22,557 nt of DNA from positions 1-22,557 of the IMG/VR virus record IMGVR_UViG_3300034374_003289. The stretch is one strand, 5' to 3'. Positions 1 to 17,890 of the stretch are shown here, one piece after another (position 1 is the stretch's first letter; every line of letters begins with the position of its first letter). The DNA comes from a virus. Position numbers and translations under genes: made by a program. The notes beneath the pieces were generated by a model. The model saw nothing but the letters and a program-made list of their open reading frames with translations. It ran no database searches and was not told where the DNA came from.

Positions 1-397
1 GAGGGATGTCACGTCGTTCTCTCTTGAGGGGTTTGCCTCTTCTGCCTATGAGACACAGTTCAGCATTTGATTTGGTGTAGTTGCCAACTCCTTTGAATAC
101 TGTGCCACTTACTGGATTGGTTTTAACCCAAGTAAAGCCGCAGGTTACATACTGAAACCCCCATCTTTCTATTACTTGATTTGTTCTCATTAGATAGGGC
201 ATGGTAGTCCAAATAAACAGTAGACTTCGATCTGAGCACCAGTCTTTAACTGGTATATTACAGATCTCTTCTAAAGTCATTGTGGGATATTTGTCAGTAA
301 CTCCACCTCCAAACGCAGTGTTTGTGTTTCTTTTTGCGTAATGCCAAGGTGGATCTGCGTATATTATGTCGTATTTCATTGGTTTCTCTGTGCCCAT
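1..397 (-). CDS. MT-A70 family N6-adenine DNA methyltransferase (3' end beyond the window)
   Basis: The gene runs off the left edge; 132 residues are visible. I translated the minus strand from ATG at 397. The N-terminus contains the catalytic DPPW motif at residues 15-18, in the context IIYADPPWHY. It is followed by LTLEEICNIPV-like, FIWTT and WGFQYV..FTWVK segments and by NAELCLIGRRGKP. This order is typical of MT-A70 proteins, which transfer a methyl group from S-adenosylmethionine to adenine N6. In phages such enzymes usually modify phage DNA to evade restriction; that role is inferred here. ATG 397 is preferred because AGAGGAGG lies 6 bases upstream. A second ATG at 379 would overlap the previous stop as ATGA but has a poorer ribosome site. 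The gene overlaps the upstream gene by 22 bases and should be translated from the same mRNA. The family call is confident; the true C-terminus is unseen. Confidence 0.9.
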   Translation of the reverse strand, partial: MGTEKPMKYDIIYADPPWHYAKRNTNTAFGGGVTDKYPTMTLEEICNIPVKDWCSDRSLLFIWTTMPYLMRTNQVIERWGFQYVTCGFTWVKTNPVSGTVFKGVGNYTKSNAELCLIGRRGKPLKRERRDIP

Positions 398-1068
398 GTT
401 TGGCCTCCTCTGTAGTTCTTGGGATTGGTCCATACTGTCTGTGCTCTTACGCCCTGTGCCTTTTGCTGTTTGGAGAAGTTATAGTCATATTCTACTGTGG
501 CGATAAAATCATATATGGCCAACATCACATACCAACTTTCATCTTCTGTGTTGTATGCCATTGAGGCGTAACAGTTGGGTTCTTTCTGTATGCCAGGCAC
601 TACACCATTGTGATCCTTGTGTAGATGGAACTTGCCATAGTATGGTGTTTTGTATCCCAGTTCTTGTGAAAATTTTCTTTTGGTTGCTTGGATCCAACCT
701 CTTGCCAACTCTAAGTCAGTGTGTCGTCTGAATATCCTTGCGTCCTTGTTCATAGTTGCAATCCATTCTGTGTTGGTCTTGTCTGTGTGATTTAGGCGAA
801 CTTTTAGTTTGTGCTTCTGTGTTGAATTTGTGTTGTAAAATATCTGTGATACCATGCGTAACACTGTGTCCATTGAGGGTGGTGTTGGTGCTTGTGCTAC
901 CACTTGACCTTCAGGCTTCGCCTCCTCTTGGCTTGAGTTCTTGTTCGACGAAGTCGATGCCAAAAGAGAGAAAGTATTGACTATATTTTCTTCATTATCT
1001 TTTCTTATAGATTTATTATCTATATTATAATACTCAACACCATTGGTGCGTTTTTGTGATTGGTTCAT
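376..1068 (-). CDS. Conserved-looking phage protein of unknown function, coupled to the methyltransferase
   Basis: This is a 230-residue soluble protein that I do not recognise. The first ~70 residues are low complexity, rich in Asn, Ser, Gln and Glu with a Pro stretch (APTPP). The rest looks like a compact mixed alpha/beta domain with many aromatic residues, for example GYKTPYYGKFHLHKDHNG, SWYVMLAIYDF and VEYDYNF. No signal peptide, membrane segment or catalytic motif is visible. An in-frame ATG at 1089 would add seven residues, but AAGGAG lies 6 bases before ATG 1068. A transcript from the late-type promoter at 1097-1104 would start near 1091, leaving ATG 1089 with no leader. The start at 1068 is therefore chosen. 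The stop overlaps the methyltransferase start region, so the two are likely one operon. It could be a partner or a DNA-handling protein, but nothing in the sequence proves this. Confidence 0.82.
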   Translation of the reverse strand: MNQSQKRTNGVEYYNIDNKSIRKDNEENIVNTFSLLASTSSNKNSSQEEAKPEGQVVAQAPTPPSMDTVLRMVSQIFYNTNSTQKHKLKVRLNHTDKTNTEWIATMNKDARIFRRHTDLELARGWIQATKRKFSQELGYKTPYYGKFHLHKDHNGVVPGIQKEPNCYASMAYNTEDESWYVMLAIYDFIATVEYDYNFSKQQKAQGVRAQTVWTNPKNYRGGQTWAQRNQ

Positions 1069-1096
1069 GTTAATCTCCTTTTCTACCATTCAAGTG

Positions 1097-1104
1097 TATT
1101 TATA
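1097..1104 (-). promoter_or_regulatory. T4-type late promoter core TATAAATA
   Basis: The minus strand reads TATATAAATACACTTG here, an exact TATAAATA core like the late promoters of T4-related phages. Placing the core at -13 to -6 predicts a start at G1091. That gives a leader of about 23 bases carrying the AAGGAG of the gene starting at 1068. No -35 element is needed for this promoter class. Its use by this phage is inferred from sequence alone. Confidence 0.55.
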
Positions 1105-1154
1105 TAATAAGGCTTACATTAGTCATAAATGCGATTTACTGCCATTGTTTAATT

Positions 1155-1183
1155 ATTATAGTATCAATATACATATTTGTCAA
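1155..1183 (-). promoter_or_regulatory. Consensus sigma70 promoter
   Basis: On the minus strand, TTGACA (1183-1178), a spacer of exactly 17 bases and TATAAT (1160-1155) match the bacterial housekeeping promoter consensus at all twelve positions. The start is predicted near 1148, about 80 bases upstream of the gene at 1068. This is the only perfect sigma70 promoter I found in the window. It would give early, host-polymerase expression of the unknown protein and the methyltransferase. Confidence 0.85.
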
Positions 1184-1191
1184 TAGACAAA
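1176..1191. promoter_or_regulatory. 16-base dyad overlapping the -35 box (candidate operator)
   Basis: TTTGTC-AATA-GACAAA is a perfect inverted repeat with six-base arms that covers the TTGACA -35 element. A protein bound here would block the sigma70 promoter. It is short and AT-rich, so it may be chance. Confidence 0.35.
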
Positions 1192-1262: not shown

Positions 1263-1288
1263 TTCGTGGCTCTCTTTTGGTCAAGCAC

Positions 1289-1319
1289 AAAAAAAGACCC
1301 TGCGTTTCCACAGGGCCTT
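1289..1319 (-). terminator. Rho-independent terminator
   Basis: The minus strand forms a nine-base stem, AAGGCCCTG with CAGGGTCTT (one G-T pair), around an 8-base loop, followed by a run of seven T at 1295-1289. It ends the candidate non-coding RNA that starts near 1452. It also separates that unit from the sigma70 promoter. Confidence 0.78.
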
Positions 1320-1452
1320 GTGTGTAGGATAGTATAATGTCTATCTTAAGGAGATAATTTTCAATGCCTGAAAATTAAAAAGTGTGATAGAATGCAACAA
1401 TAGGAGTAAATCAAATGGCAGTAAGATTAACAAGAATGACACATCCTATCAC
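1289..1452 (-). ncRNA. Candidate structured phage non-coding RNA, about 164 nt
   Basis: A late-type promoter core at 1465-1458 predicts a start at G1452, and a terminator ends at 1289. In between, the minus strand has no ORF longer than a few codons with a ribosome site. It does have three inverted repeats. GTGATAG (1452-1446), the predicted first bases of the RNA, pairs with CTATCAC (1390-1384). AATTTTCA (1376-1369) pairs with TGAAAATT (1363-1356) around a five-base loop. GATAG (1345-1341) pairs with CTATC (1332-1328). The terminator stem follows. I recognise no known RNA family. The RNA and its function are inferences. Confidence 0.42.
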
Positions 1453-1457
1453 AAAAG

Positions 1458-1465
1458 TATTTATA
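1458..1465 (-). promoter_or_regulatory. T4-type late promoter core TATAAATA
   Basis: The minus strand reads ATATAAATACTTTTGTG, close to the T4 late consensus TATAAATACTATT. It sits just downstream of the terminator that closes the structural operon. The predicted start is G1452, which opens the candidate non-coding RNA. Confidence 0.55.
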
Positions 1466-1486
1466 TTTTTTTTAGGATTGGGTGTT

Positions 1487-1522
1487 AAAAAAGGTTGAAT
1501 CCAGCCGGAACTGAATCCAACC
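1487..1522 (-). terminator. Rho-independent terminator of the tail/fibre operon
   Basis: On the minus strand, GGTTGGATTCAG pairs over all 12 positions (two G-T pairs) with CTGGATTCAACC around the loop TTCCGG. Six T follow at 1492-1487. It lies 23 bases after the stop of the zinc-ribbon gene, so it ends the long late transcript. Confidence 0.88.
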
Positions 1523-1544
1523 CCTTAGCCCCATTGAACAGTTC

Positions 1545-3663: not shown

Positions 3664-6087
3664 CTAAAAGGGCGGTGTCGCCGTTAATGTTGTGACCAAA
3701 GATGATGCATGGAATATTCTTGATATATTCAGTGTAGCAGGACTCATAAGAGTGTTTTTAATTTTATAATCAACTTTGCCAATGTATTTTACAAAACGAT
3801 AAGGTGCTTGTGTTTCCATTTCAAAGAACTTCACACTGAAATCAATCTCAGCATCTTTGCCTGGTGATTGAGGTGTATAACTATTGGTTGAATTAAATGT
3901 TACACGACCATAAAGATTTTCATAGTCACTTGACCTAATTGCATGATTAAAATTATAGGCATAGAAAGGATATGTTCCTTCTAAATCTGTAAAGAAACTC
4001 GATCTTTTAATACTGGCAACACCACTTGAATAAACATCGCCCTGCACAAACCATTTTATGCCTGCTGTTAGTTCTTGTTCCATTTTGTGAACACCATCAG
4101 GATCTCCTGCACCTTGTAGCAACACAGGAACATACTGTGCGGCAATGTCAAAGCCTCCTGTATATGTGCCTCTGCCTCCAACATTTTTATCTTCGTATCT
4201 TACTGTTTGATCAAAACTTAATCTTTCAGGATCAAACAGCACATTGAGATTGCCTAAAGTAAATCCGTATCTGCCCTGAAAGTCTGTATAACAAAAACCT
4301 ATTCTTTTACTTGCACCTGTTCTTTCTGTGAGTGTTGGTGCAAACGCATAATAACCTCTTGTGAATTCTAAACCTGAAATCCTTTTAGCACCAAAAGCAA
4401 GAAATGCTCTCTGTGTGCTTGCATGATATGAAGTATCATTTTCATATGTAAATCCCAAACCTAAACTTGTGGCACCTGCAGATCTCACAGCACCTATCAT
4501 ATATTCACTGTTTGGTCCAAGCAAACTGTAGTTCGAAAAACCATTCACAGTTGCGGCGTTAAATTCAAAACTTGCTGGTGCGGGTGGGAATATGCTATTG
4601 TTTCCACCTGGGTCACCTGGACCTGGATTTGCATCACCTGGTTCTTTGGGAACTATTGCTCCACCACTGCCTTCTTCTTTGGGTCTAATAAGTTTACCAC
4701 CTGTGGTAGGTATTAATGCACCTTTATAGTCTTCAGGTAATTGTGTGTAGTTTGCATAAGGCCAAAAGAATGTGTCCGAATGTGTGTATGCTTCTACCTG
4801 GACTGTAAAATCAGGTTGTAAAGACATACTAACAATTCTAACAGGTTGATAGTCAATATCAGGAACACTTAGTTTTAATCTTACAATGTCACCAACTTGA
4901 TATTGGAATAGATCTTTGAAAACACGAAATTCATATTTTGCACTGGCTCTACTTCTAATCCAAAACTGTCTTGCAACTCTTTCAGCCATATAAGGATCTG
5001 TTATACTGTCAAGGCTGAGGTCTAAAACATTTACACTGCCACCATCTTCTGTTATATAAGGATTAATCAATTCCTGTGTTCTTGGCCAAGTTCTTGTGGT
5101 TGCTTGAAATCCATTGTCTGCATCAAGGAATGTGTATCTTACACTGTTGTATTTTGTTGCTCTGTCTGGATAGGTAATTCTTACCTGTTCTACAAAACTG
5201 TTTTCTGTAATATCAACTTCTGGTGACCCTGTTTGTTCTGTGACCAATACAAACTGTCCATTTATGTATGGCATAAGACAACTGTTGATTTTCAACATAT
5301 TCTTTATGTTTTGTTCAATAGTTTGTGCAGTGTTTATTGTGACGTTACTGGTATATCTTTTGGTTGTATAGGTTTGTCCATTTGACAGTATAAGGTCTGT
5401 ATCACTTGCAAAAAATGTTGTGGCATTGCCAAAACTTGTAGTTTCAATTGCTGAATTAGAAAAACCTGCACCATAGGTCGAATTCAAAAGATAATCTTGT
5501 ATGTGTGCGGCAGGATCAGTTGAATAAGAAACAGTTCCGGTTGGATTGCCTGCTGGTGCTACTCTTCTACCAAAGAAATCCAATGCAATTTTTGGAATAC
5601 CTTCATATGGTGAATTTTCACCTTCAAATCTAAATTTACAAACCAAAACACTGAGATTAGACATATCCTGCACAGGACTGTTTAGGTTCTGACTTACAAG
5701 ATTACTTAGATTGATGCTTGATTCTGAACCACTCATAAATTCAAATTCTGCTATACCATAATATGGATTGTCTGTTTGCTTTGGTCGTCTAATACCGTTA
5801 TTATGAGAACCTGTCATTGTCATAGGTTGGTCTGTTTCTACATAAACATCATCTACATACAATCTATAAACACCTTCACAAGGTCCTTCACTGATTGCGT
5901 AAATTACAATCAAATCATTTGTGTTCTTTGTGCTGATACTGGTAAAGATTCTACTTGGAACTGTTCTCTGCATACCATAAATTACAGGTATGCTCTTGTC
6001 AGTTAGATTACTATTTTGTTCTTGAAGTTCAAATTCTTTGTCTGGTAAATTGTCAAAAAATTCTCTATAAAACGGATTACTAAACAC
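3664..6087 (-). CDS. Central tail tip/hub protein (lambda gpJ-like)
   Basis: This 807-residue protein acts at the distal end of the tail. Early residues match the J-type hub pattern: SIPVIYGMQRT, then NDLIVIYAISEGPCEGV and RLYVDDVYVETD. The middle (about residues 250-450) resembles the Phage-tail_3 region with a PYMAERVARQFW segment and a YQVGDIVRLKL strand. A Gly/Pro-rich linker near residues 485-505 (PGDANPGPGDPGG) leads to a C-terminal beta-rich module of about 300 residues, probably variable and surface-exposed. The start codon is GTG, overlapping the previous gene by eight bases, with TGGGG upstream. Position after two distal tail genes and before fibre genes supports the call. It is shorter than lambda gpJ. 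Confidence 0.86.
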   Translation of the reverse strand: MFSNPFYREFFDNLPDKEFELQEQNSNLTDKSIPVIYGMQRTVPSRIFTSISTKNTNDLIVIYAISEGPCEGVYRLYVDDVYVETDQPMTMTGSHNNGIRRPKQTDNPYYGIAEFEFMSGSESSINLSNLVSQNLNSPVQDMSNLSVLVCKFRFEGENSPYEGIPKIALDFFGRRVAPAGNPTGTVSYSTDPAAHIQDYLLNSTYGAGFSNSAIETTSFGNATTFFASDTDLILSNGQTYTTKRYTSNVTINTAQTIEQNIKNMLKINSCLMPYINGQFVLVTEQTGSPEVDITENSFVEQVRITYPDRATKYNSVRYTFLDADNGFQATTRTWPRTQELINPYITEDGGSVNVLDLSLDSITDPYMAERVARQFWIRSRASAKYEFRVFKDLFQYQVGDIVRLKLSVPDIDYQPVRIVSMSLQPDFTVQVEAYTHSDTFFWPYANYTQLPEDYKGALIPTTGGKLIRPKEEGSGGAIVPKEPGDANPGPGDPGGNNSIFPPAPASFEFNAATVNGFSNYSLLGPNSEYMIGAVRSAGATSLGLGFTYENDTSYHASTQRAFLAFGAKRISGLEFTRGYYAFAPTLTERTGASKRIGFCYTDFQGRYGFTLGNLNVLFDPERLSFDQTVRYEDKNVGGRGTYTGGFDIAAQYVPVLLQGAGDPDGVHKMEQELTAGIKWFVQGDVYSSGVASIKRSSFFTDLEGTYPFYAYNFNHAIRSSDYENLYGRVTFNSTNSYTPQSPGKDAEIDFSVKFFEMETQAPYRFVKYIGKVDYKIKNTLMSPATLNISRIFHASSLVTTLTATPPF

Positions 6088-6655
6088 TTTGATTACCCCA
6101 GTTCACTTTGTCTGTTGTTGCACTACTAAAGGTGCTGGTTTTTCTACCATTAGTTGATCTTAGACCTGCAAACTTATTTGTAATCAAAAGAGTCAATGCA
6201 AAATCTGTTGTGGTTCTTGTGCCGTTAATCTTTGATATGTTTCCATCAAACAGTGGCATAACTACACCTGTGCTTTTTGGTGCTGTGCCTAAACCACTAC
6301 TTAATTCTCTAAACAGTAGGTCTATATACACATTTGTTTGTGTGTATCTGTATTGACTAAGTGCTGATTCCTGCGTCAAAGCATCATATACAACATCACT
6401 AACATCACCAATTGTTATTTGTATTTCGTTGAGGTTTAATTCATATAATTCTGATATATTGCCTACTATTTGAACACCATTGGTTGCTGTGTATGTTTGC
6501 ACACCAAATCCGTGTTGTGTGTCTTGGTCTGTGTTGAATTCTCCTGTGGTATAATAAAAATTACCACTGGGAGTTGCAATAGACAATAGTTTTTCAATGT
6601 AAAAGGGATTGTCTGTTAAATTGTTCTGTTGATCTGAACTTAAATCCCTTGCCAT
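6080..6655 (-). CDS. Distal/minor tail protein, tail tip assembly
   Basis: This 191-residue protein begins MARDLSSDQQNNLTDNPFYIEKLLSI and contains YELNLNEIQITIGDV, typical of small minor tail proteins that precede the J-like hub in siphoviruses (lambda gpL/gpK positions). No protease or membrane motif is visible. It starts at an ATG that overlaps the previous stop as TAATG, so translation is coupled. It overlaps the hub gene by eight bases. The precise role at the tail tip is inferred from order. Confidence 0.75.
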   Translation of the reverse strand: MARDLSSDQQNNLTDNPFYIEKLLSIATPSGNFYYTTGEFNTDQDTQHGFGVQTYTATNGVQIVGNISELYELNLNEIQITIGDVSDVVYDALTQESALSQYRYTQTNVYIDLLFRELSSGLGTAPKSTGVVMPLFDGNISKINGTRTTTDFALTLLITNKFAGLRSTNGRKTSTFSSATTDKVNWGNQSV

Positions 6656-7251
6656 TAGATTACCTCTATCATTTCAAGTGTAAAAGTTGCAAAGTCTGTT
6701 GGATCACTTCTATATGCAAGTCCTGAAGTGCTAAATCTTACATTAACAGGCACACTGATATGGGTAATCGCAGCACCATCACTGATATCATCTAACAGTC
6801 CTGGTTGTATGTTCATAGTTGCATTACCATTAATGTCTGCACTACTTACATCACTACTGACCATATAGGTTTTGTTGCTACCTGCGATTCTTACCAAGTC
6901 ACCTTTTTTAAGAATGCCCTGTCCAAGTCCTGCACTGGTATCTATTGAAATTGCTGTGTCATCTGCTGTATAGTCACCATCTACTGTGATCGATCCTGTG
7001 TATCCTGCACTACTTTTGCCTATGTCACCTGGTAGTGTAAAATCAAACGCATTTAGGCCGCCCCGTTGTTCTGCTATAAATCCCTGTATCTGTCTTCTTT
7101 CTGCATCCGAAAGATTTGAAAAGGTTGCTCTAATTACATACTTCTGTGTTTCTATTAGTGCTCTTTGTTCTCTACCATTCAAACTGGTTGTGACCAAAAT
7201 AGGTTGATTGTGTTCAAATTCAAGTGTGCTTGGTGTAATTGGGAATGCCAT
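6655..7251 (-). CDS. Distal/minor tail protein (gpM-like position)
   Basis: This is a 198-residue beta-rich protein. The N-terminal half (TLEFEHNQPILVTTSLNGREQRA...YVIRATFSNLSD) and the segment GLNAFDFTLPGD resemble distal tail proteins that sit just after the tape measure gene. A central KKGDLVRIAGSNKTYMVSSDV segment looks like an inserted beta-barrel. The C-terminus returns to the first fold (DFATFTLEMIEV). The ATG overlaps the tape measure stop as TAATG. It likely forms part of the ring at the end of the tail tube; this is inferred. Confidence 0.76.
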   Translation of the reverse strand: MAFPITPSTLEFEHNQPILVTTSLNGREQRALIETQKYVIRATFSNLSDAERRQIQGFIAEQRGGLNAFDFTLPGDIGKSSAGYTGSITVDGDYTADDTAISIDTSAGLGQGILKKGDLVRIAGSNKTYMVSSDVSSADINGNATMNIQPGLLDDISDGAAITHISVPVNVRFSTSGLAYRSDPTDFATFTLEMIEVI

Positions 7252-10145
7252 TAAAATGCTCCTTGTCTACTTGGTCTATTTTCAACAGCACTTCTAACCA
7301 AGTCTGTGATTAATGCTTTTTTCTGAACCAACATAGTATCAAAGCCACTTGCATCAATTGCATTGACTTGGAATGTTATGTTAATGTTGTCTCCGCCTAA
7401 CATACCTTGACTATCGGAGTTTGAAAACACACTGGCTGGTCCTTGCACAAGTTCTGGTCCCTGTTCTCCGACAACACCTATTGTGCCTGGACGAATATAA
7501 CCACCATCTGCAAAAAGACCTCCAAAGAGACTGCCTACGAAACCTCCAATTGGTCCAAATATTGCTGAACCTGCGGCTGAAAGGAATCCACCGATGCCTC
7601 CACCGCCACCGCCACCTCCTCCAAAGAGACTTCCGATAGCACCTGATATGCTTCTAAATGCTCCACCAAATGTTGAGCCTAAGAAATCACCAACACCGCC
7701 AAACAAACTAAAGATACCACTGGCTAATCCGCCTAATGAACCAAGTGCGTTTGAAACAAAACTACCAATTGCACTGAGTCCTGTTTGTAAGAATGTGCCT
7801 TCTATGGTGCTACTAATAGGTCCAAATATGCCTGGTGTTTGTCCAGCAAAGCCACCTAATTCATTTGCACCTTGTGTTCTAAATCCAAGTATGCTTCTTA
7901 TACCTGCGGCAAATGTCTGTTTAATAATGTCTGTGATATTCACACCAAATGTCAATTGAACGACTTCTTCAAGTATGCCAAATTCTTTTGATGTTAGTCC
8001 TGTAAATTCTTTTATCTTTTCATCTAACAGACCATACAAGTCGTCATATTCTTTTGTGACAGCATCTGCATAGTCTTTGTTTATTTGACGCAACACAGCA
8101 TCTTTGTCTATTTCACTTGCAATCAAATCGTCATTGAGTGCTTCATTTAATTCACGAATTCTATCTGTGTAGATATCATATGAATCTTTTTGTGATTCTA
8201 AAGCACGATTTGAAAAGTCAATAATTTCTCTGTGTTTTTCACGAGCAATTTCTATTTGTTTTTCTGCAATATCTTTGTCATATGCCGCAAGTGCATCTAA
8301 AGTTCCTTTGGCATTTTCTAAACCAAGTTCTCTTGCTCTTTGAAGAAACTGTTGTTTTTCATATTCTATTCTTTCAACTTCAGTTGCATATTTCAAATAA
8401 CTTTGTTCAAGAATTTGATCTGTTCTTTGTGTAAATTGTTTTCTATCTTCTTCTAATTTTCTTATTGCGTCTGCGGCGTCTTCAGCAGCCCTGATTTTAG
8501 CAAGTTGTCCTTTTACAAAAGTTTCTGCTTGTTCTTTTTCTGCTTCTGTTAGTTCTTCAATTGTTTTACCAAGTGATTTTGCAAGTGCCTCTTGGGCTTT
8601 CATTATTTCTGTGGCTTCACGTCTTTCGTCATTGCTCTTGCCAGCAAGTTTAACTTCATTCAACAGTGTCTTTTGATAGTCAGTAAATGCTTTTTCAACT
8701 TTTTCAACTTGGTTTTCTAACTTACCAAGTTCTTCTTTGTATTCATCTGTGACTCCTGTGTTTTCTTCAATCACAGCAGTATTATCTTCTATAACCTCAC
8801 TATAATCTTCTACTTCTTTGCCTATTTCATCGTATTCTTGTTTTAGTTTTTCTAAATCTTCAGTTGCTTGTGCAATATTTTCCGACCAATCTCCTAAACC
8901 TAAGAAATCCATTGCCTGCATTGCTGCTCTTTTAACATAGAGCCATCCTTGTGCAACAAGATTTAAGGCTTTTTCCCAATCAACAAAAAGTGAAAGAATA
9001 GAAATAATTATACCAACAACACCTGCCAATTTTGCAACTTTATTAAGGTAGATAAATCCTGTTGCAACAATACCTAAACCTTTACCTAATTTGATAGCCG
9101 CAAGTTGTGTAGTAGTAAATGCTTTATCAACCATAATAATTTGCCCTGCGGCGTTGTAAGATGCAGCACCTGCTGTGGCAACTCTTTCTGCAACACCCAT
9201 TAGTGCAACACTGGCTTTGATCAAACCTGTTCTAATTAGTGTTCCAAATGCCAATGTCAAACCAGCAACAGCAGGAATTACCAAATCAAATCTTGCTATT
9301 AAGTCTCCTATTGCACCAATAAAAGGTGTAATAATAGTAATGCCTCTTGAAAGAGCATTTATTAGTTCTGCAAGAGCAGGACCTAATTCTCTAAAGAAAC
9401 GATCTCCTGCCAAATCCATTGCAATTCCAAAGTTGCTCATTGCAGTGCTAAGGTTATCCATTCTTGATTCTGTTGCACCACCAAATCTATCGTTGATTTC
9501 ATTTGATAATGCTCTTAGGATCAGTTTTGCACCATCTGCACTTTTACCTAAGTCACTTAATTGTAATCTGTTCTTACCAAGAGTTTTTTGAAGCATATCA
9601 AAAACAGGAACACCTCTATCAGCAAGTCTGTTGAGATCTTCAAGACCCAAACCACCTGCTGTTGTTCTTGAAAACAAATCACTCATTGCTTCTAAGGCAC
9701 CAATTTGATCAGTGGTGATAGCCGCAGTGTCTGTGAACATGGTCATTAGTTCATCCATGTTTTGTAGACCATAGTTTGTTGGATCAACACCGTTGGCTTT
9801 TAATTTGATATAGGCTTTTGTAAGATCTTGAACACTGAATTGTGTGCTTGTGGCAAAATCACTTATCTTTTCAAATGCTGTTGCACCTGCTGATACACTA
9901 CCTTCAACAGCAGATAAAGAATCCCTTAGGTCTTCAAAGTCTGCCGCCACAGATACTACTTTACCGCCAGCAAATGCCGCCGCAATAGCCGCACCAACTT
10001 TTTTAGCAGTGCTCTCTAATTTTTTCATAGAGGCATTGCTTTTATTCACATTTTGTTCTAACTTACCAACACTTTTTTCTACATTATTGAGACTGGCGGT
10101 TGCTTTATCTACGAGTGTTAGTATTATTTGTGCGGTGTTTGCCAC
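7251..10145 (-). CDS. Tail tape measure protein
   Basis: This 964-residue protein sets tail length during assembly. An N-terminal helical region with tape-measure signature segments (AADFEDLRDSLSAVEGS, GLEDLNRLADRGVPVFDML) covers residues ~65-200. Hydrophobic segments follow near 270-305 and 370-390. A long Glu/Lys-rich coiled coil runs from about 420 to 740. The C-terminus is Gly/Phe/Leu-rich with a run of nine Gly and the common FADGGYIRPG...VVGEQGPELV motif. The start is GTG at 10145 with AGAGGA upstream; it lies inside the frameshifted chaperone gene (41-base overlap). The length suggests a tail near 145 nm by the usual proportionality. The call is firm. Confidence 0.95.
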   Translation of the reverse strand: MANTAQIILTLVDKATASLNNVEKSVGKLEQNVNKSNASMKKLESTAKKVGAAIAAAFAGGKVVSVAADFEDLRDSLSAVEGSVSAGATAFEKISDFATSTQFSVQDLTKAYIKLKANGVDPTNYGLQNMDELMTMFTDTAAITTDQIGALEAMSDLFSRTTAGGLGLEDLNRLADRGVPVFDMLQKTLGKNRLQLSDLGKSADGAKLILRALSNEINDRFGGATESRMDNLSTAMSNFGIAMDLAGDRFFRELGPALAELINALSRGITIITPFIGAIGDLIARFDLVIPAVAGLTLAFGTLIRTGLIKASVALMGVAERVATAGAASYNAAGQIIMVDKAFTTTQLAAIKLGKGLGIVATGFIYLNKVAKLAGVVGIIISILSLFVDWEKALNLVAQGWLYVKRAAMQAMDFLGLGDWSENIAQATEDLEKLKQEYDEIGKEVEDYSEVIEDNTAVIEENTGVTDEYKEELGKLENQVEKVEKAFTDYQKTLLNEVKLAGKSNDERREATEIMKAQEALAKSLGKTIEELTEAEKEQAETFVKGQLAKIRAAEDAADAIRKLEEDRKQFTQRTDQILEQSYLKYATEVERIEYEKQQFLQRARELGLENAKGTLDALAAYDKDIAEKQIEIAREKHREIIDFSNRALESQKDSYDIYTDRIRELNEALNDDLIASEIDKDAVLRQINKDYADAVTKEYDDLYGLLDEKIKEFTGLTSKEFGILEEVVQLTFGVNITDIIKQTFAAGIRSILGFRTQGANELGGFAGQTPGIFGPISSTIEGTFLQTGLSAIGSFVSNALGSLGGLASGIFSLFGGVGDFLGSTFGGAFRSISGAIGSLFGGGGGGGGGIGGFLSAAGSAIFGPIGGFVGSLFGGLFADGGYIRPGTIGVVGEQGPELVQGPASVFSNSDSQGMLGGDNINITFQVNAIDASGFDTMLVQKKALITDLVRSAVENRPSRQGAF

Positions 10146-10673
10146 GGTTCATTGTCCTCTCAGTATCCTTCTTTTCCAACATATAGTATGCCGCCCAAAG
10201 TCTCCATTCTAAGGTTGTCATATCCAATATGTCTTCCAATGTGCGACCCAGTTCCTTAGCCAAAAACATGGTGAACCTAAGGTCAGGATCGCCTTTTAGT
10301 TTTTTTCCAGTTCCTCAAGTGCAGGCATATCCTCTGGAGTTGCACCATTGATTTGTGTAGCAACACGCAATACCACTTGGGGATCAATTTCATTCATAAA
10401 CGATGCTTTATCATGTTTTGTGAATAAAGGATTTCCTTCTTCGTCTCTTGCTTTGTTGATTATGGTCATTACCAATGCTTCAACTGTCTTACCTGATTTG
10501 GTCAATTCAACAACTTCTGCTTCTGCTCTCAGTGTTTGAACTGGTCTATAATATATTTCGCAATCCCACTCAGGAACATGAAAACTTTTCATTGCACCTG
10601 AAATTTGTCTTTTGTAGTGGTTGGTTGCGTTTTGTAAAACACTCACCTTTGGTTTTTTTACTTCTTCCGTCAT
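10105..10673 (-). CDS. Tail assembly chaperone, long form made by -1 frameshift (gpGT-like)
   Basis: The short frame ends GAA AAA AAC TAA. A -1 slip on A AAA AAC moves ribosomes into a frame that stays open for 64 more codons to TAA at 10107-10105, giving 189 residues. The extension reads LKGDPDLRFTMFLAKELGR, then TLEDILDMTTLEWRLWAAYY. This is the classic 'T' domain pattern of siphovirus chaperones (a leucine-rich helix with ELGRT..., then EW..AYY). In lambda, gpG and gpGT bind tube protein and tape measure to start tail assembly. The gene lies directly before the tape measure gene, as expected. An inverted repeat (CCTTAG 10282-10277, CTAAGG 10259-10254) may form a weak stimulatory stem. The frameshift is inferred from sequence but very well supported. 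Confidence 0.88.
10296..10673 (-). CDS. Tail assembly chaperone, short form (gpG-like)
   Basis: This is the unshifted 125-residue product. It starts with a basic MTEEVKKPKVSVLQNA segment and contains WDCEIYYRPVQTL, then a helical region AEAEVVELTKSGKTVEALV and an acidic C-terminus (ATPEDMPALEELEKN). The DCEIYYRPVQTLR segment resembles the core of tail chaperones that bind the tape measure. The ATG overlaps the stop of the previous gene as ATGA. It should be the major product, with the long form as a minor fraction. Confidence 0.86.
   Translation of the reverse strand: MTEEVKKPKVSVLQNATNHYKRQISGAMKSFHVPEWDCEIYYRPVQTLRAEAEVVELTKSGKTVEALVMTIINKARDEEGNPLFTKHDKASFMNEIDPQVVLRVATQINGATPEDMPALEELEKN
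10299..10305 (-). promoter_or_regulatory. -1 frameshift slippery heptamer A AAA AAC
   Basis: The minus strand has GG, seven A, then C and TAA. The heptamer is in register with the reading frame (codons AAA, AAC) and sits directly before the stop codon, which would favour pausing and slippage. The -1 frame continues into a recognisable chaperone T domain. Confidence 0.87.
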
Positions 10674-10960
10674 TTGGTTTTTCCTTTGTTTATAGTTGCT
10701 CGTAGGGCTTGTTTGACAAAACCTCGAGGAGCCTGTTTAGAATAACCACCTTCAAGTCTTTCAATGTAAGGAACTTTGTTCTCTACAATTCTATCCCTGC
10801 CTTGTGATCTCTTATTCCAGCCTCTTCGGGCTCGTCCTTTGTCAATAGGAGTGCGTTTTTTCACTTCAGTTTGATAGGTATTTTGCAAAAAGTCTAATTC
10901 CTTTTTAACCAAAGGTTCAAACTCTTTTACAATATTATCTGCACGAAATGTAATACGCAC
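10670..10960 (-). CDS. HK97 gp10-like tail completion/head-tail joining protein
   Basis: This 96-residue basic protein has the pattern TPIDKGRARRGWNK, then VENKVPYIERLEGGYSKQAPRGFV. It matches the HK97 gp10-like family ('TPvdTGrar..W', 'N.vpYa..lE.G.s.qaP.G'). These proteins act at the neck or tail end during siphovirus assembly. The start is GTG at 10960 with a strong AAGGAG 8 bases upstream, overlapping the region after the tube gene stop. Its end overlaps the chaperone start as ATGA. Confidence 0.85.
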   Translation of the reverse strand: MRITFRADNIVKEFEPLVKKELDFLQNTYQTEVKKRTPIDKGRARRGWNKRSQGRDRIVENKVPYIERLEGGYSKQAPRGFVKQALRATINKGKTK

Positions 10961-10972
10961 TCCTAAATCTCC

Positions 10973-11386
10973 TTAGATGGTTGATGTAGTGATAGCACCT
11001 GTTCCAGTAAATGAAACACTTGCTTCAGTTATACCATCGTATGATGCTGTCACTGAGTAAGAAGTGACAATTACATCACCTGCAAACTTAGTAGCAGTCA
11101 CACTACCATCTGGGAACAATTCTACACTGACAGTATCGTCAGTTGCAGGATCTAATGCAGTTGACACGATTGTATCTTCTGAATCGTCATAAACGATATC
11201 CATTGAACCTGAATAGGATTGTAGTCCCTTTTTGTATGTTCTAACACCACTTGACCCCATAGAAGTATCTTCTACTGTGTCTCTTGTGATATCCATACTC
11301 CAAGATCTAACACTCGCCACCGCCGTGAGAGCATCAGAGCCGGATTTGATTTTAACTGATCCTGCGGATCCTTCATATCTCGCCAT
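10973..11386 (-). CDS. Major tail tube protein
   Basis: This 137-residue protein is almost all beta strand, with alternating Ser, Thr and Val and no long helices, as in siphovirus tube proteins. Key segments are SWSMDITRDTVEDTSMGSSG, TYKKGLQSYSGSMDIVYDD and the C-terminal ASYDGITEASVSFTGTGA, a common tube-family pattern. It would stack as hexameric rings around the tape measure. The ATG overlaps the preceding stop as TAATG. Position between terminator and chaperone genes supports the call. Confidence 0.9.
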   Translation of the reverse strand: MARYEGSAGSVKIKSGSDALTAVASVRSWSMDITRDTVEDTSMGSSGVRTYKKGLQSYSGSMDIVYDDSEDTIVSTALDPATDDTVSVELFPDGSVTATKFAGDVIVTSYSVTASYDGITEASVSFTGTGAITTSTI

Positions 11387-11628
11387 TACTCTTCTCCTTC
11401 GTTAGTTGTTGGCATAGAGGTGTCATCTAAACTATATGTCCAGTTGTCCTCATCTTCCTGAGGAGCATCCTCCTCTATGACATCAGCAGTGGCTTTGGCA
11501 TTGCCAATCTTGCTGACTTTTTTCTTCACAGTGCCAACTTCTTGCCAACCCTGTGAAAGAAAATTGTGTAGATAACGGCTTTTGACTTCTTGAGTCATTC
11601 CGTCTTTCTCAATTGTTACTTTGCTCAT
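11386..11628 (-). CDS. Small phage protein of unknown function between tail terminator and tube genes
   Basis: This is an 80-residue protein. The N-terminal third (VTIEKDGMTQEVKSRYLHNFLSQGWQEV) resembles a short motif seen in small phage structural proteins: a strand, a helix, then 'GW..V'. The C-terminal half is acidic and probably disordered (EEDAPQEDEDNW). The gene is bounded by TAATG junctions on both sides, so it is translated with its neighbours. It may be a minor virion or assembly factor; no function can be assigned. Confidence 0.78.
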   Translation of the reverse strand: MSKVTIEKDGMTQEVKSRYLHNFLSQGWQEVGTVKKKVSKIGNAKATADVIEEDAPQEDEDNWTYSLDDTSMPTTNEGEE

Positions 11629-12053
11629 TATGTTGTCCCCTTAGTGTAGAGGTATCTTACCTCAACGGTTATAGCCACCTCACCTAAGGGTGGCAATCTG
11701 TCGACCACTTCAATAAAAGTGACCTGTGTCTTCATGTCTTTGCGACTTGAATCTCTTGAACGATCTGTGTCTAATGTTTCTTCTATTCTTTCGATGATAT
11801 CGTTCTTCTTTTTATCTAATTCGTTGCCTCTTACAAAGGCTCTAATAATATATGTGATTGTGCCCTGTCTTTTTATGCCCATGCTGTAGTCAGCACGAGT
11901 TTCATTGAATGTGTTAATCAATATTGCAGGGAATTGTGTGATTGCTAATTTTTCAACATCAAAAGGTTCTCGTGTCACAAGCACAGGTTTTGGATCTGCC
12001 ATGTTCTTGAGAACATCAACTATGTTTTCTGCGAAATCGTTTCTTAAACTCAT
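11628..12053 (-). CDS. Tail terminator (tail completion) protein
   Basis: This 141-residue alpha/beta protein begins with a helix (MSLRNDFAENIVDVLKNM) and has FPAILINTFNETRADY, GTITYIIRAFVRG and VAITVEVRYLYTKGTT. The strand-helix order and length fit lambda gpU or SPP1 gp17-type terminators, which cap the tail tube and bind the head connector. It lies between the connector and tube genes, the canonical position. Stop and next start overlap as TAATG. Sequence identity to named members cannot be judged here. Confidence 0.78.
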   Translation of the reverse strand: MSLRNDFAENIVDVLKNMADPKPVLVTREPFDVEKLAITQFPAILINTFNETRADYSMGIKRQGTITYIIRAFVRGNELDKKKNDIIERIEETLDTDRSRDSSRKDMKTQVTFIEVVDRLPPLGEVAITVEVRYLYTKGTT

Positions 12054-12056
12054 GTC

Positions 12057-12503
12057 TTACCTCTGCAATCGCAAGAAGTAAGCAGGTTCCTTTTCTACAT
12101 CAGTGACTGTTCCATCATTGTCAATGTCATATTCAACACCATCTTGGATCACCATTGTAATCTCTTCATTAAACCTTTGTTTGTAGTAGTCCATTTTGAC
12201 CTGGAACACATCAAGTTCAGGTTCAAATTTTGATAGTTGAGGATAGATGAAATATGCGAGAGCATAGTATACAGTTGCTCTTGTCATCTGACTTTCTGTT
12301 AGTAAAGCAGAATTCATTTCTGCATTTAGACCAATTACAGTGATGTCAAATTTACCAATCTGTTGTGTTGGCCACCAATGCACTCTAAGATATCTTTCAA
12401 CGTCTGCTTGTGCTTTAGACAAAGCATCGTCAAAGTTGTGAATGCCATAGTTTTGGATGTCTGGTTCGTATTCTAAAACATCCGAGATAGTTGCAAAAGC
12501 CAT
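12057..12503 (-). CDS. Head-tail connector (adaptor) protein
   Basis: This 148-residue mostly helical protein has ISDVLEYEPDIQNYG, ALSKAQADVERYLRVHWW and MTRATVYYALAYFIYPQLSKF. This is the typical layout of gp6/gp15-like adaptors that add to the portal after packaging. The C-terminus carries an acidic patch (DIDNDGTVTDVE). A strong GGAGGAG lies 5 bases before the ATG. It is the first gene after the capsid terminator and heads the tail operon. Confidence 0.8.
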   Translation of the reverse strand: MAFATISDVLEYEPDIQNYGIHNFDDALSKAQADVERYLRVHWWPTQQIGKFDITVIGLNAEMNSALLTESQMTRATVYYALAYFIYPQLSKFEPELDVFQVKMDYYKQRFNEEITMVIQDGVEYDIDNDGTVTDVEKEPAYFLRLQR

Positions 12504-12537
12504 CGGCTCTCCTCCAGTCCTACTAAAAGGTTTAACA

Positions 12538-12556
12538 AAGCAAGTCCTTCTTGCTT
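12538..12556 (-). promoter_or_regulatory. 5' leader hairpin before the connector gene
   Basis: On the minus strand, AAGCAAG-AAGGA-CTTGCTT is a perfect seven-base stem with a five-base loop. It lies 35 bases upstream of the connector start and has no T-run, so it is not a terminator. If the weak late promoter at 12561-12568 is used, the RNA would begin at the base of this stem, as in 5' stabilising hairpins of phage mRNAs. Confidence 0.5.
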
Positions 12557-12560
12557 AATA

Positions 12561-12568
12561 TATTTAGT
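12561..12568 (-). promoter_or_regulatory. Weak late promoter-like core (ACTAAATA)
   Basis: The minus strand reads GACTAAATATATT, two differences from TATAAATA and one from the looser NATAAATA form. It sits between the capsid terminator and the 5' hairpin, just where a promoter for the connector/tail operon is needed. The match is imperfect. Confidence 0.3.
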
Positions 12569-12573
12569 CAAAT

Positions 12574-12604
12574 AAAAAAAAGGGCCCTCGAAAGAGCCCT
12601 TTTT
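12574..12604 (-). terminator. Rho-independent terminator after the major capsid gene
   Basis: On the minus strand, AAAAAGGGCTC pairs through a GC-rich stem with GAGGGCCCTTTTT (one G-T pair, TTTC loop region) and ends in eight T at 12581-12574. It starts 14 bases after the capsid stop. Capsid mRNA would end here, allowing a higher capsid than tail dose. Confidence 0.88.
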
Positions 12605-12617
12605 CTAAAGTTTGTTA

Positions 12618-13478
12618 TTAGTCAATAACAGCATCTGTAGTGATTGCAACACCATGTAGGTCTTGTAGTTCACCAACAGCATATGTCATAGAACCAACAA
12701 TTTCAGTTGCTCTTAGAGAAGCATCTCTTTGAGTTTCAATTGAAATGTCTTTCTTAACAGCATATGCAATCGCATCTGGATGCATCACAGCACCTACATA
12801 TGCACCAGTGGAATCACCAGTTACAACAGCAGATTCGTATAAATCTACGCCTGCGATACGACCCACGAAGCCTTCTGCAAGAGCAGCATTACCAATGTCA
12901 CTTAGTGCATGGTTGATTGCTGAAGCACCTGAGTTAGTTAATTGCTTCTTAAGGTTATACATTTGGTTTGGATGGAATACACCAACATATGGTCCCATTA
13001 CTGAGTTTGCTCTTAGGTTAGCAACAGCCTGGAAGATCAAGTCAGCAGTTAATTCTGGCTGAGTTGCAGCACCAATAGTAGTTGAAAAACCACTGAATAG
13101 AGCAGCAATATCTTCGTCAACTTTCTTAGCAAGACTCTCACCAATGATACGACCAATGCTTGCAGCAGTGTCGTCATTAGCACTATCACGAGCAGTGTCA
13201 GTTAGTGTGACCAATGCCGCAATTTCGTCTGCGTCGAAAGTTTTTTCAGTTGCAGTAACAGCAACATTAGTTGCGTCTGTGCCTTCACCTGATACAAGTG
13301 AAGAAGTTGCAATAGTTGGGTAGATACCCACTTTTGCTTGTTTGCCTGGCTGTCCTGTAAGATTAAAGTTTCTTACTAAAGGACGCATGAAGCCTCTTTC
13401 CTGCATAGTGAATAGTGCAGCCTGCTGAACGTCACTAAACAGGGCGGCTAAAGTTGTTCCAGTTGTTTCGTTTGCCAT
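12618..13478 (-). CDS. Major capsid protein (HK97 fold)
   Basis: This 286-residue protein lacks the long N-terminal delta domain of self-scaffolding coats. Recognisable segments are VGIYPTIATSSLVSGEG, TFDADEIAALVTLTDTARDSA (the E-loop/spine region), VGVFHPNQMYNLKKQL, IAGVDLYESAVV and the C-terminal LRATEIVGSMTYAVGELQDLHGVAI. They fit HK97-fold coats of scaffolded phages. It follows the scaffold gene by 33 bases, with AGGAG 7 bases before ATG, and is followed by its own terminator. The call is firm; the exact family is not. Confidence 0.9.
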   Translation of the reverse strand: MANETTGTTLAALFSDVQQAALFTMQERGFMRPLVRNFNLTGQPGKQAKVGIYPTIATSSLVSGEGTDATNVAVTATEKTFDADEIAALVTLTDTARDSANDDTAASIGRIIGESLAKKVDEDIAALFSGFSTTIGAATQPELTADLIFQAVANLRANSVMGPYVGVFHPNQMYNLKKQLTNSGASAINHALSDIGNAALAEGFVGRIAGVDLYESAVVTGDSTGAYVGAVMHPDAIAYAVKKDISIETQRDASLRATEIVGSMTYAVGELQDLHGVAITTDAVID

Positions 13479-13504
13479 GTTATTTCTCCTGTGTTATAGC
13501 AATT

Positions 13505-13522
13505 TAAGGATTTACATCCTTA
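13505..13522. repeat. Hairpin spanning the scaffold stop codon
   Basis: TAAGGAT-TTAC-ATCCTTA is a perfect seven-base inverted repeat overlapping the stop codon of the scaffold gene, 27 bases upstream of the capsid start. There is no T-run. It could affect mRNA processing or coupling between scaffold and capsid translation. Confidence 0.45.
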
Positions 13523-14219
13523 TACCTTTGGACTTCATCAACTCTTTGTAGATTTTTCTATCTTCCGCAGAGTTCATGTTTAAGGATGAAACATCTACTT
13601 TGCCAGGTGTTGAACCACTGGAGTTTGCGATATTGCTGGTAGTGCCTGAACCATTTGGACCTGCACTTATGAAATGTGGATTGGTTTGAAGAAAATCTTT
13701 AACCAAATCATCAACACCCATAGCAACACCTTTGTCAGTGTATCTAACATTGCCATTGTCGTCAAGCACTTCAACATCACCGGCATCGCCAAGTCTAATG
13801 TTGTTTTTCAGCAAACTCACAACCTGTTTAGGATTGATTGCTTTGCCTGCACTCGCCGCATTTAACAATGCACCGTCGACTTTGATAGAGGTCAATTCCT
13901 TTTGCAGTTGATTGATAACACCATCTTTCTTTTCAACAGTTGACTTAAGGATAGTTTCAAATTCTCCTCTTGCCTTTTGTTGTTCAAGACGTGCTTCTTC
14001 TTCTGCCGCAATCATTTCTCTATATTTGTTGACGTCAACGCCTTCAAATTGTTTAGAGATCTTTTTGCGTTCTCTATCTAATCTTTCCTTGACTATTCTG
14101 TCAAGTTCATCCTGGCTAAAAGCCTTTGTTTCTTCCTGGTTTTCTGCTATAAAGTCCTGATTATTTTCAGCAGTAGGCTCGCCAGTTGCCTGTTCTGTTT
14201 GAACTTGTTCTTCGTTCAT
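13512..14219 (-). CDS. Capsid assembly scaffolding protein
   Basis: This is a 235-residue acidic, helical protein. It begins with a disordered Glu/Gln-rich tract, then FSQDELDRIVKERLDRERKK, a segment typical of GP20/DUF4355-type scaffolds. A Glu/Lys/Gln coiled coil follows to about residue 120, then GKAINPKQVVSLLKNNIRLGDAG and DKGVAMGVDDLVKDFLQTNP. The C-terminus is short and basic (IYKELMKSKGIRM), like the coat-binding tail of many scaffolds. The start at 14219 has AGGAGG 6-7 bases upstream. A longer version from 14252 has GAGGG too close to its ATG. The gene directly precedes the capsid gene. Confidence 0.86.
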   Translation of the reverse strand: MNEEQVQTEQATGEPTAENNQDFIAENQEETKAFSQDELDRIVKERLDRERKKISKQFEGVDVNKYREMIAAEEEARLEQQKARGEFETILKSTVEKKDGVINQLQKELTSIKVDGALLNAASAGKAINPKQVVSLLKNNIRLGDAGDVEVLDDNGNVRYTDKGVAMGVDDLVKDFLQTNPHFISAGPNGSGTTSNIANSSGSTPGKVDVSSLNMNSAEDRKIYKELMKSKGIRM

Positions 14220-14284
14220 TTGTATCCTCCTGTTATGGTAGAAGTCCCCCATTCCCTCGTAATTGAGTAAAACTTATACACCAA

Positions 14285-14292
14285 TATTTATC
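14285..14292 (-). promoter_or_regulatory. Late promoter core GATAAATA before scaffold/capsid
   Basis: The minus strand reads GATAAATATTGG, matching the NATAAATA core of T4-related late promoters. It lies in the only sizeable gap (about 105 bases) between the small genes and the scaffold gene. The start is predicted at G14279, about 60 bases before the scaffold start. It could raise capsid expression over packaging genes. Confidence 0.42.
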
Positions 14293-14325
14293 TAAGATGC
14301 CTGTAAACCAACCAAAAACGGTGAT

Positions 14326-14388
14326 CTAACGGCCTCCACGACGGCCACCTCTTTTGCCGCCTTTTTTCTTCTTTTTTTTCATAGCCAT
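14326..14388 (-). CDS. 20-residue Lys/Arg/Gly peptide
   Basis: This tiny gene reads MAM, six Lys, GGKRGGRRGGR, so 11 of 20 residues are basic and nearly all others are Gly. AGGAGG lies 8 bases before the ATG and overlaps the stop codon of the previous gene (TAAGGAGG), one of the best ribosome sites in the window. The peptide would be disordered and bind nucleic acid, like a protamine or Arg/Gly-rich tail. It sits between the portal group and the scaffold gene, so it may enter the capsid with DNA or help packaging; this is inference. It falls below usual gene-finder limits. Confidence 0.7.
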   Translation of the reverse strand: MAMKKKKKKGGKRGGRRGGR

Positions 14389-14401
14389 GTCACAGCCCTC
14401 C

Positions 14402-14578
14402 TTACATTCCCATTACTACGGCAATTAACTGTGCAAACACAGCCAATGTCACAGCACCAAGAAATCTTTTGATCATCAACATATCTTTTTCCATATGCTT
14501 TAAATGATTGTCTAATACCAAATCTATTTTTTGTTCTAAGAGTGATAACCTCTTGTCCAAATTTTCGTATTCTTTCAT
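14402..14578 (-). CDS. Small one-TM coiled-coil membrane protein (XhlA/holin-like layout)
   Basis: This 58-residue protein begins MKEYENLDKRLSLLEQKIDL, an amphipathic helix with heptad-like Leu/Ile spacing. It continues VLDNHLKHMEKDMLMIKRF and ends in a hydrophobic segment (LGAVTLAVFAQLIAVVMG). The order of coiled coil, NHL-H motif and C-terminal membrane span is shared with XhlA-type hemolysin/holin partners and small membrane proteins of many marine phages. The ATG overlaps the previous stop as TAATG, with AGGAG 9 bases upstream. It may be a lysis accessory or membrane anchor, but its place beside portal genes leaves other roles open. Confidence 0.78.
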   Translation of the reverse strand: MKEYENLDKRLSLLEQKIDLVLDNHLKHMEKDMLMIKRFLGAVTLAVFAQLIAVVMGM

Positions 14579-14820
14579 TAGTCTTCACTCCTGTAGATTG
14601 TATCTGCAATTTCACCTCTTCTTGCCCTCACAAGATGGTAGATGTTTAACAGATGTTTTCGTGCCCTCACGCCTGCTGAATTATTCCATCTTTTCATAAA
14701 TTTTTCATTTTCCTGATAGTATGCTTTGAGTTCACGCATAAGTTCTTCGTGGCAATCTGTAGGTTGCACACGATAGGTAAACTCTTTCACCAAAACATCT
14801 ACATCAGGTTCATTACTCAT
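14578..14820 (-). CDS. Hc1/histone H1-like small basic protein
   Basis: This 80-residue protein has a helix of about 30 residues (HEELMRELKAYYQENEKFMK), followed by NNSAGVRARKHLLNIYHLV and a basic RARRGEI. The AGxRARK-L-x-L...R.EI pattern is the one found in Hc1/histone H1-like proteins of Chlamydia, Bacteroidetes and phages, which coat or bend DNA. The start chosen is ATG 14820, which overlaps the portal stop by eight bases and has GAGG about 10 bases upstream. A longer reading from 14859 has no support. It is next to the portal gene, so a DNA-packaging or ejection role is possible. The family call rests on motif resemblance only. Confidence 0.7.
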   Translation of the reverse strand: MSNEPDVDVLVKEFTYRVQPTDCHEELMRELKAYYQENEKFMKRWNNSAGVRARKHLLNIYHLVRARRGEIADTIYRSED

Positions 14821-16300: not shown

Positions 16301-16303
16301 CGT

Positions 16304-17542: not shown

Positions 17543-17874
17543 TAATCTTCATCCCAAGGAAGTGGTTGATTTTCTGAAGTATTTTCTGGAGTCTCCTGCT
17601 GCGACAAGTAATTCTTGCCCAAAAAGATCTGCATACGGGTATCACCATTTAGTGCTTTGTCCCACTGTGCTCTTCTCAAACTCTTTTTACCGACACTTTT
17701 GCCCTTTTCAATAAGATCTCCAAAGTTCTTACGCACCGCATCGTGACTGATACCTACAACATCTGCTATTTCTCTCAATGTGCATTGCATACAGGCCAAA
17801 CGCCATACAGTTTCTCTATCAACATCTTTTACCTTAACCGGGCGTCGGTTTTTAGGTATTTCATATTCATCCAT
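17542..17874 (-). CDS. terS: Terminase small subunit
   Basis: This 110-residue basic protein recognises phage DNA for packaging. A helix-turn-helix spans residues ~25-52 (ACMQCTLREIADVVGISHDAV), followed by KNFGDLIEKGKSVGKKSLRRAQWDKALNGDTRMQIFLGKNYL, the usual oligomerisation region of small terminases. The C-terminus is acidic and short. The ribosome site is GAGGGG but rather distant (about 12 bases). It abuts the large subunit by TAATG. Confidence 0.9.
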   Translation of the reverse strand: MDEYEIPKNRRPVKVKDVDRETVWRLACMQCTLREIADVVGISHDAVRKNFGDLIEKGKSVGKKSLRRAQWDKALNGDTRMQIFLGKNYLSQQETPENTSENQPLPWDED

Positions 17875-17890
17875 AGTTTTTTCCGCCCCT

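Follow-up and report, generated by a model that had tools for sequence, protein, structure and literature searches.

The late promoters of phage T4 (TATAAATA) are read by gp55 together with gp33 and gp45. Late promoters of the NATAAATA type are known from T4-like phages with gp55, gp33 and the sliding clamp, and the cyanomyoviruses are T4-like phages that carry g55, g33 and g45. According to the accessible part of one report, the late promoters of the cyanomyoviruses S-PM2 and Syn9 have the consensus NATAAATA with a variable first base (PMC2984593). The same part describes genes of RB49 and S-PM2 that are believed to be served by early and late promoters overlapping each other, and the logic of stacked promoters therefore has a precedent (PMC2984593). 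In T4, transcription starts about 6 bases after the late core, as stated in the accessible part of another report (PMC1524935). No description of NATAAATA-type promoters in small siphoviruses was found in the literature searched, which had most subscription papers outside it.

In this study, we analysed a stretch of 22,557 bases (positions 1 to 22,557 of the IMG/VR virus record IMGVR_UViG_3300034374_003289), called the window here at its full length. Its minus strand encodes a terminase, portal, scaffold, HK97-type capsid, tape measure, distal tail, J-like and lectin-type fibre proteins. This gene set indicates a siphovirus-type phage that is not T4-like. The nearest named phage is DSL-LC06 (29.8 kb, terminase identity 55%; locus L032 here), followed by the Pelagibacter phages HTVC111P, 202P, 112P and 026P (46-50%). 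Terminase, portal, scaffold, capsid and tail genes of these siphoviruses are homologous to those of the window, but the terminase identity is only 46-55%. A family 'Nanhuiviridae' has been proposed for DSL-LC06, and the word 'promoter' is absent from the accessible main text of that report (PMC10611076). DSL-LC06 was deposited as a complete genome; the genome of the window species is incomplete and lacks a few kb. Contig L004 belongs to the same species as the window (4990-18481 corresponds to window 22553-9062, 99.87% identical over 13.5 kb) and extends it by 4,989 bases. With the last tail gene (1735-2163) as query, 41 related loci were obtained. A terminase scan of genome contigs for the host gave just two distant loci, at 42-43%, and a search for tRNA and tmRNA found none.

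A sequence-only reading had proposed that an early and a late promoter are stacked at 1068-1191. The features at and around this site are as follows.

2 to 397, minus strand: second gene, an MT-A70-type DNA methyltransferase, truncated at the edge of the window
376 to 1068, minus strand: first gene, 230 aa, no recognised family, with a Shine-Dalgarno sequence upstream
1073 to 1082, minus strand: Shine-Dalgarno sequence AAAAGGAG of the first gene
1097 to 1104, minus strand: late-type core TATAAATA (as TATAAATAC), 28 bases before the first gene start; predicted start about 1091
1119 to 1145, minus strand: eight-codon ORF MAVNRIYD, its AUG about 3 bases from the predicted 5' end
1155 to 1183, minus strand: perfect sigma70-type promoter TTGACA-17-TATAAT; predicted start about 1148; position conserved in relatives
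1176 to 1191, minus strand: perfect 16-base dyad TTTGTC-TATT-GACAAA (6-4-6) over the -35 box; at chance level and not conserved
1287 to 1319, minus strand: intrinsic terminator T2, 11-bp stem and U tract, upstream of the promoter
1287 to 1453, minus strand: predicted structured RNA of about 167 bases, z -5.8, 13-bp closing stem, ending in T2
1458 to 1465, minus strand: second TATAAATAC core, 17 bases downstream of TTAACA (1488-1483)
1486 to 1526, minus strand: intrinsic terminator T1, 15-bp stem and U tract, at the end of the structural operon

The sigma70-type promoter was present where it had been placed, with its -35 box TTGACA at 1183-1178, a 17-base spacer and its -10 box TATAAT at 1160-1155. 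It matches the consensus at 12 of 12 positions and is the sole perfect one in the window. Window-wide shuffles had a mean of 0.08 perfect promoters (8 of 100 shuffles contained one, and the window has 1), and within the 800 bases after the tail gene a perfect promoter occurred in 1 of 500 shuffles. We compared 12 boundary regions, one per near-identical group and with the window included. A match of at least 10/12 lay on the coding strand after the tail gene in nine of them (window, L002, L032, L040, L042, L043, L045, L049 and L050); lone 10/12 matches are frequent in shuffles, and what counts is the common position together with the 11/12 and 12/12 matches. No match of at least 10/12 was found at this boundary in L037, L046 or L051; in L051 a perfect promoter is placed further on, preceding a possible distant relative of the first gene. 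In the antisense control, the best match was 9 or lower in 11 of the 12 regions. DSL-LC06 has one perfect promoter, on the coding strand at the equivalent boundary and 6 bases before an annotated start. An exact copy of the window's promoter was searched for in IMG/VR, and none was found. These comparisons indicate that a strong predicted sigma70 promoter at the end of the structural module is conserved in relatives.

The TATAAATA core was likewise present as claimed, at 1104-1097 on the minus strand and downstream of the sigma70 promoter, with 50 bases between the -10 box (1155) and the core. Its wider form, NATAAATA, was counted in the sense gaps between automatically called genes, where each gap between divergent genes was used in both directions. 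The window species had 6 copies against 0.54 expected, a number reached in none of 200 shuffles. The same held for G001 (4 against 0.43), G002 (3 against 0.38) and G003 (9 against 1.70), each with 0 of 200 shuffles. G004 was enriched for ATAAATAC (5 against 0.36, 0 of 200 shuffles) and less for NATAAATA (21 of 200). Enrichment was marginal in DSL-LC06 (15 of 200 shuffles) and was not found in HTVC111P (43 of 200) or HTVC026P (no copies), the two HTVC genomes tested, which differ from the window species in this respect. These automatic counts include copies formed by Tyr-Lys-stop codons, namely one of the three G002 sites and others in L043 and L045. A TATAAATA conserved before the tail gene was considered as a promoter and rejected, as it consists of the Tyr-Lys-stop codons of the preceding gene. 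Such copies were not taken as evidence and are absent from the hand-picked species count and from the scaffold and post-capsid counts described below.

The element was also found before particular late genes, and the window has two such sites.

14285 to 14292, minus strand: GATAAATA, a conserved late-type site 32 bases before the scaffold gene (14252)
12561 to 12568, minus strand: ACTAAATA, a degenerate core of late type that follows a terminator and precedes the post-capsid gene (12503), with a hairpin 5 bases on

A scaffold gene match was obtained in 30 loci, from which four without a start codon were dropped (L052, L060, L087, L101). NATAAATA lay at most 110 bases upstream of the scaffold gene in 21 of the remaining 26. 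After 10 near-duplicates were dropped (L003, L004, L014, L016, L006, L008, L009, L011, L062, L067), it was upstream of the gene in 12 of 16 clusters against 0.98 expected, and in 0 of 16 on the antisense strand; the clusters were picked by eye, and two positive ones, L061 and L066, remain rather similar. The maximum in 100,000 simulated sets was 7. The scaffold upstream regions of L012, L013 and the two HTVC phages had no NATAAATA. For the gene downstream of the capsid gene, 30 loci were reduced to 25 by dropping five without a start or upstream sequence. TAAATA preceded this gene in 7 of 15 clusters, several times directly after a terminator; 10 of the 25 loci had been dropped, either as repeats or for no good reason, and these include L052, L066 and L087, none of which has TAAATA.

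We next considered what reads the element. At 24 NATAAATA-type sites the best -35 match had a mean of 3.0/6, compared with 2.94 in shuffles. Twelve sites in the T4 late region behaved in the same way (3.0 compared with 2.90 shuffled), and seven sigma70 sites of the window's phage family had 5-6 of 6. It is somewhat unlikely, given these values, that NATAAATA is an ordinary host sigma70 -10 box (TATAAA) assisted by an activator and needing no phage sigma factor, because the 24 sites as a group stand at shuffle level for the -35 box. The core also includes bases beyond the -10 hexamer, up to TAAATA, after which the window species mostly has C, and the second conserved box expected for an activator was not seen in a non-exhaustive look. 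In favour of such a host promoter, the 1465 copy has TTAACA at 17 bases, a fair -35 box (5/6, compared with 4/6 for the 1104 copy), and this copy at least might thus be the -10 box of an ordinary sigma70 promoter.

The search for gp55-like or other sigma factors, which found none, also speaks for the activator. The gp55 family phrog_234 was searched for at E<=0.001 in nine records and at E<=10 in ten, and sigma70 region 2 (PF04542) and phrog_12791 in ten records each; T4 alone matched in all cases. Since several records are fragments, the absence is firm only for DSL-LC06 and two HTVC genomes, and of these three DSL-LC06 alone shows any sign of the element. The T4 machinery implied by the sequence-only reading thus failed to appear in any relative searched for phrog_234. 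A phyletic profile of NATAAATA genomes against both HTVC genomes contained no recognisable sigma factor. Among the families common to the NATAAATA genomes and missing from both HTVC genomes were head and neck proteins, a large protein of unknown type, a 307-aa protein, a 111-aa protein near the terminase genes and a 95-209-aa protein that is PacI-like by the DSL-LC06 annotation.

In the entire window, TATAAATA was seen twice against 1.02 expected (25 of 100 shuffles reach 2), and pure chance was our first reading, later overturned by counts in related sequences (species gaps, family and scaffold). Both copies lie within one non-coding gap of 476 bases, and two or more copies arose there in 1 of 1000 shuffles. 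With genes hand-picked, the window and L004 together have 1,110 non-coding bases, in which TATAAATAC occurred four times on the sense strand and not at all on the antisense strand; shuffles had a mean of 0.026, and none of 2000 reached four. In an open count of these gaps, TATAAATAC was the commonest 9-mer, and among 8-mers TATAAATA was level with the Shine-Dalgarno sequence AAAAGGAG. One L004 copy precedes, by 30 bases, a 43-aa ORF that contains a hydrophobic stretch and by inspection would encode a membrane protein. The other lies 34 bases before a gene weakly similar to a tail-fibre connector (phrog_677, E 2e-8). In L004:737-1537 we also observed a near-perfect sigma70 promoter (TTGACA-17-TATAGT at 1536) ahead of leftward genes, standing opposite a rightward TATAAATAC core.

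The sigma70 promoter might work alone; the TATAAATA at 1104 would then be an accident of A/T-rich sequence, perhaps a remnant of a small gene that decayed between the promoter and the first gene. Relatives do have a small gene at this place, often leaderless, and TATAAATA arose in 71 of 2000 shuffles of the leader. The window leader also aligns with both ends of the L002 small gene, with TATAAATACA on TTTAGAAATACA; the whole alignment was reached in 1 of 1000 shuffles, but its ends contain the start codon and the Shine-Dalgarno sequence, and the interior was reached in 33 of 1000. We regard such an accident as unlikely, since TATAAATAC is strongly over-represented in the gaps of the species and both L004 copies stand at a distance from their genes that matches the layout in the window.

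RNA folding was examined behind the cores. At five of eight sites a hairpin began 4-5 bases after the core; two others had it from base 1, and the last from base 17. Hairpins at 4-5 bases lie near the start expected from T4 geometry. As a separate observation, the RNA upstream of the post-capsid gene forms a predicted hairpin in the window (12530-12560, minus strand) and in L006, L007, L010, L032, L099 and L102; the stem sequences differ, the loop is mostly AAGGA, and most begin close behind the TAAATA core. It is improbable that NATAAATA is a feature of the mRNA, such as a processing site or an A/U-rich enhancer of ribosome binding, rather than a promoter. The element does often lie 18-34 bases upstream of a start codon, and a Shine-Dalgarno sequence then stands between the two, but the scaffold and post-capsid cores are about 50-70 bases upstream in most clusters, and several cores come directly after a terminator with hairpins beginning just behind.

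These results suggest that NATAAATA behaves as a promoter of the T4 and cyanophage late type. By sequence comparison, the putative sigma70 promoter is conserved, and TATAAATA belongs to a family-wide, strand-specific element that lacks a -35 box and precedes scaffold, post-capsid and tail-fibre genes. The likeness to T4 late promoters covers the core sequence, the missing -35 box, the position shortly before late genes and an expected start about 6 bases after the core. In contrast to T4, the phage is of siphovirus type with relatives of about 30 kb, no gp55 family member is detectable, the first base is variable, and the next base is C in all four copies of the window species. The cyanomyovirus late promoters, as far as the accessible text goes, share the consensus and occur beside early promoters in some genes, whereas the window's phages are not T4-like.

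Since the sigma70 promoter is conserved and TATAAATA is family-wide, 1068-1191 is best read as a stack of two signals, one early-type and one late-type, and the proposal of an early plus late stack is probably correct in kind. The predicted starts, about 1148 and about 1091, follow from the positions of the -10 box and the core. The proposed stack held for the presence of both signal types; it did not hold for the dyad, the methyltransferase pair and the gp55 machinery. In all three loci with a BLAST-detectable homologue of the first gene (the window counted), a core of the form (N)NTAAATA follows the sigma70 promoter: TATAAATAC in the window, 50 bases after the -10 box, AATAAATA overlapping the end of the -10 box in L002, and CTAAATAC in L050. 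The leaders of L002, L050, L051 and L040 do not retain the exact TATAAATA, and conservation of the stack is therefore suggestive.

The region would act as a tandem control point where the structural (late) module of a small siphovirus-type phage meets a non-structural operon. The late operon would stop at a terminator, and from the consensus sigma70 promoter unmodified host RNA polymerase would start the downstream operon of the first gene and the MT-A70 methyltransferase. Fifty bases on, the TATAAATAC core may give a second, later entry into that operon. We infer that the sigma70 promoter acts early and that TATAAATAC is a promoter, used late and read by a sigma-like or RNA-polymerase-modifying factor of the phage. 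A control point of this kind, with an early sigma70 promoter and a later TATAAATAC entry to the methyltransferase operon, appears reasonably probable to us.

The data hint that late genes are switched on in a T4-like way, in a phage family for which no such switch is known. More tentatively, and with slightly less than an even chance, the whole family of aquatic siphovirus-type phages of about 30 kb may use a late programme of the T4 and cyanophage type, with -35-less NATAAATA promoters, a phage-encoded reader not recognisable as gp55, and one such promoter in tandem with a host-type promoter before the methyltransferase operon. A T4-type core before scaffold and capsid-region genes of small siphoviruses raises the question of whether a T4-like late factor spread and diverged until it was no longer recognisable or the motif arose twice. 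The predicted early sigma70 promoter, late cores, terminators and leaderless genes make a first regulatory map for uncultivated phages near the proposed family.

The dyad over the -35 box lies at 1191-1176 as the sequence-only reading had noted, and its regulatory role found no support. A comparable dyad occurred in 164 of 500 shuffles of the promoter segment, and about 6% of the window's hexamers touch such a dyad; we therefore gave it no weight. No dyad is present in 7 of the 10 promoters compared, L002 and L032 have different ones, and the dyad as a conserved operator was rejected on this ground. That a phage repressor shuts the early promoter through this dyad is very improbable: the 6-4-6 repeat is perfect, but it is at chance level, has a single perfect copy in the window and is not shared by the other promoters.

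Only the second of the two downstream genes is a methyltransferase, and the 'methyltransferase pair' of the sequence-only reading does not stand. The second gene, whose start (397) overlaps the end of the first, matches MT-A70 (PF05063, E 8e-18) and phrog_359 (E 8e-46), and its C-terminal part lies beyond the window. Its translation contains DPPW, which we take to be the motif of the MT-A70 domain. The first gene matched no Pfam or PHROGs family at E 0.01, and a PDB profile search gave no match under E 0.13; on these results it was rejected as a methyltransferase. Its AlphaFold model was unusable (pLDDT 41.7). Homologues of the first gene detectable by BLAST were in L002 (70%) and L050 (33%).

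The predicted structured RNA at 1287-1453 lies between T1 and T2 and begins about 5 bases after the second TATAAATAC core. An Rfam search with intergenic RNAs of 10 sources gave none at the gathering score; the window's matches were weak (E up to 5) and far below gathering scores. Non-coding stretches with short common segments were also observed near the small gene in L043, L045, L046, L049, L037 and L032 (about 750-1180), with GGGGTTAAAACACGACCC common to L032 and L037. These stretches are possibly other structured RNAs. Within the structured-RNA region of the window, the plus strand has a candidate 27-codon ORF (1415-1498) with the Shine-Dalgarno sequence MAVRLTRMTHPITKVFIFFLGLGVKKG.

A well-known leaderless phage mRNA is that of lambda cI. 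In the relatives L040, L042, L043, L045, L049 and DSL-LC06, an ATG lies 6-7 bases after the -10 box, at or adjoining the predicted first RNA base, which resembles the lambda case and fits a sigma70 start about 7 bases after the -10 box. The reading frames behind these ATGs are mostly unrelated in sequence. The shared promoter and the unrelated frames suggest that, in relatives, the early-type promoter stays constant while the leaderless first gene behind it is exchangeable. A search of viral contigs based on the promoter pattern gave 18 loci, and in 10 of them the tail gene lies 546-717 bases upstream. A leaderless small gene behind a strong sigma70 promoter was also seen in L084; the DSL-LC06 case is L032:1293-1633.

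The slot in the window has only the eight-codon frame, followed by a gene with a Shine-Dalgarno sequence. MAVNRIYD is possibly a remnant of the relatives' leaderless small gene, as the leader alignment weakly suggests. Translation of mRNAs with a 5'-terminal AUG and a Shine-Dalgarno leader has been studied in E. coli, according to the accessible part of the report (PMC4965119). The window's predicted transcript would likewise begin close to an AUG and carry a gene with a Shine-Dalgarno sequence further downstream, but differs from leaderless and 5'-AUG mRNAs in that its predicted 5' ORF has only eight codons. A further small gene was noted in DSL-LC06, where L032:607-750 contains an unannotated homologue, recognised by eye, of the small KHIQWL-type gene. 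It has an in-frame TGA where relatives read on, and may be a pseudogene or a case of recoding.
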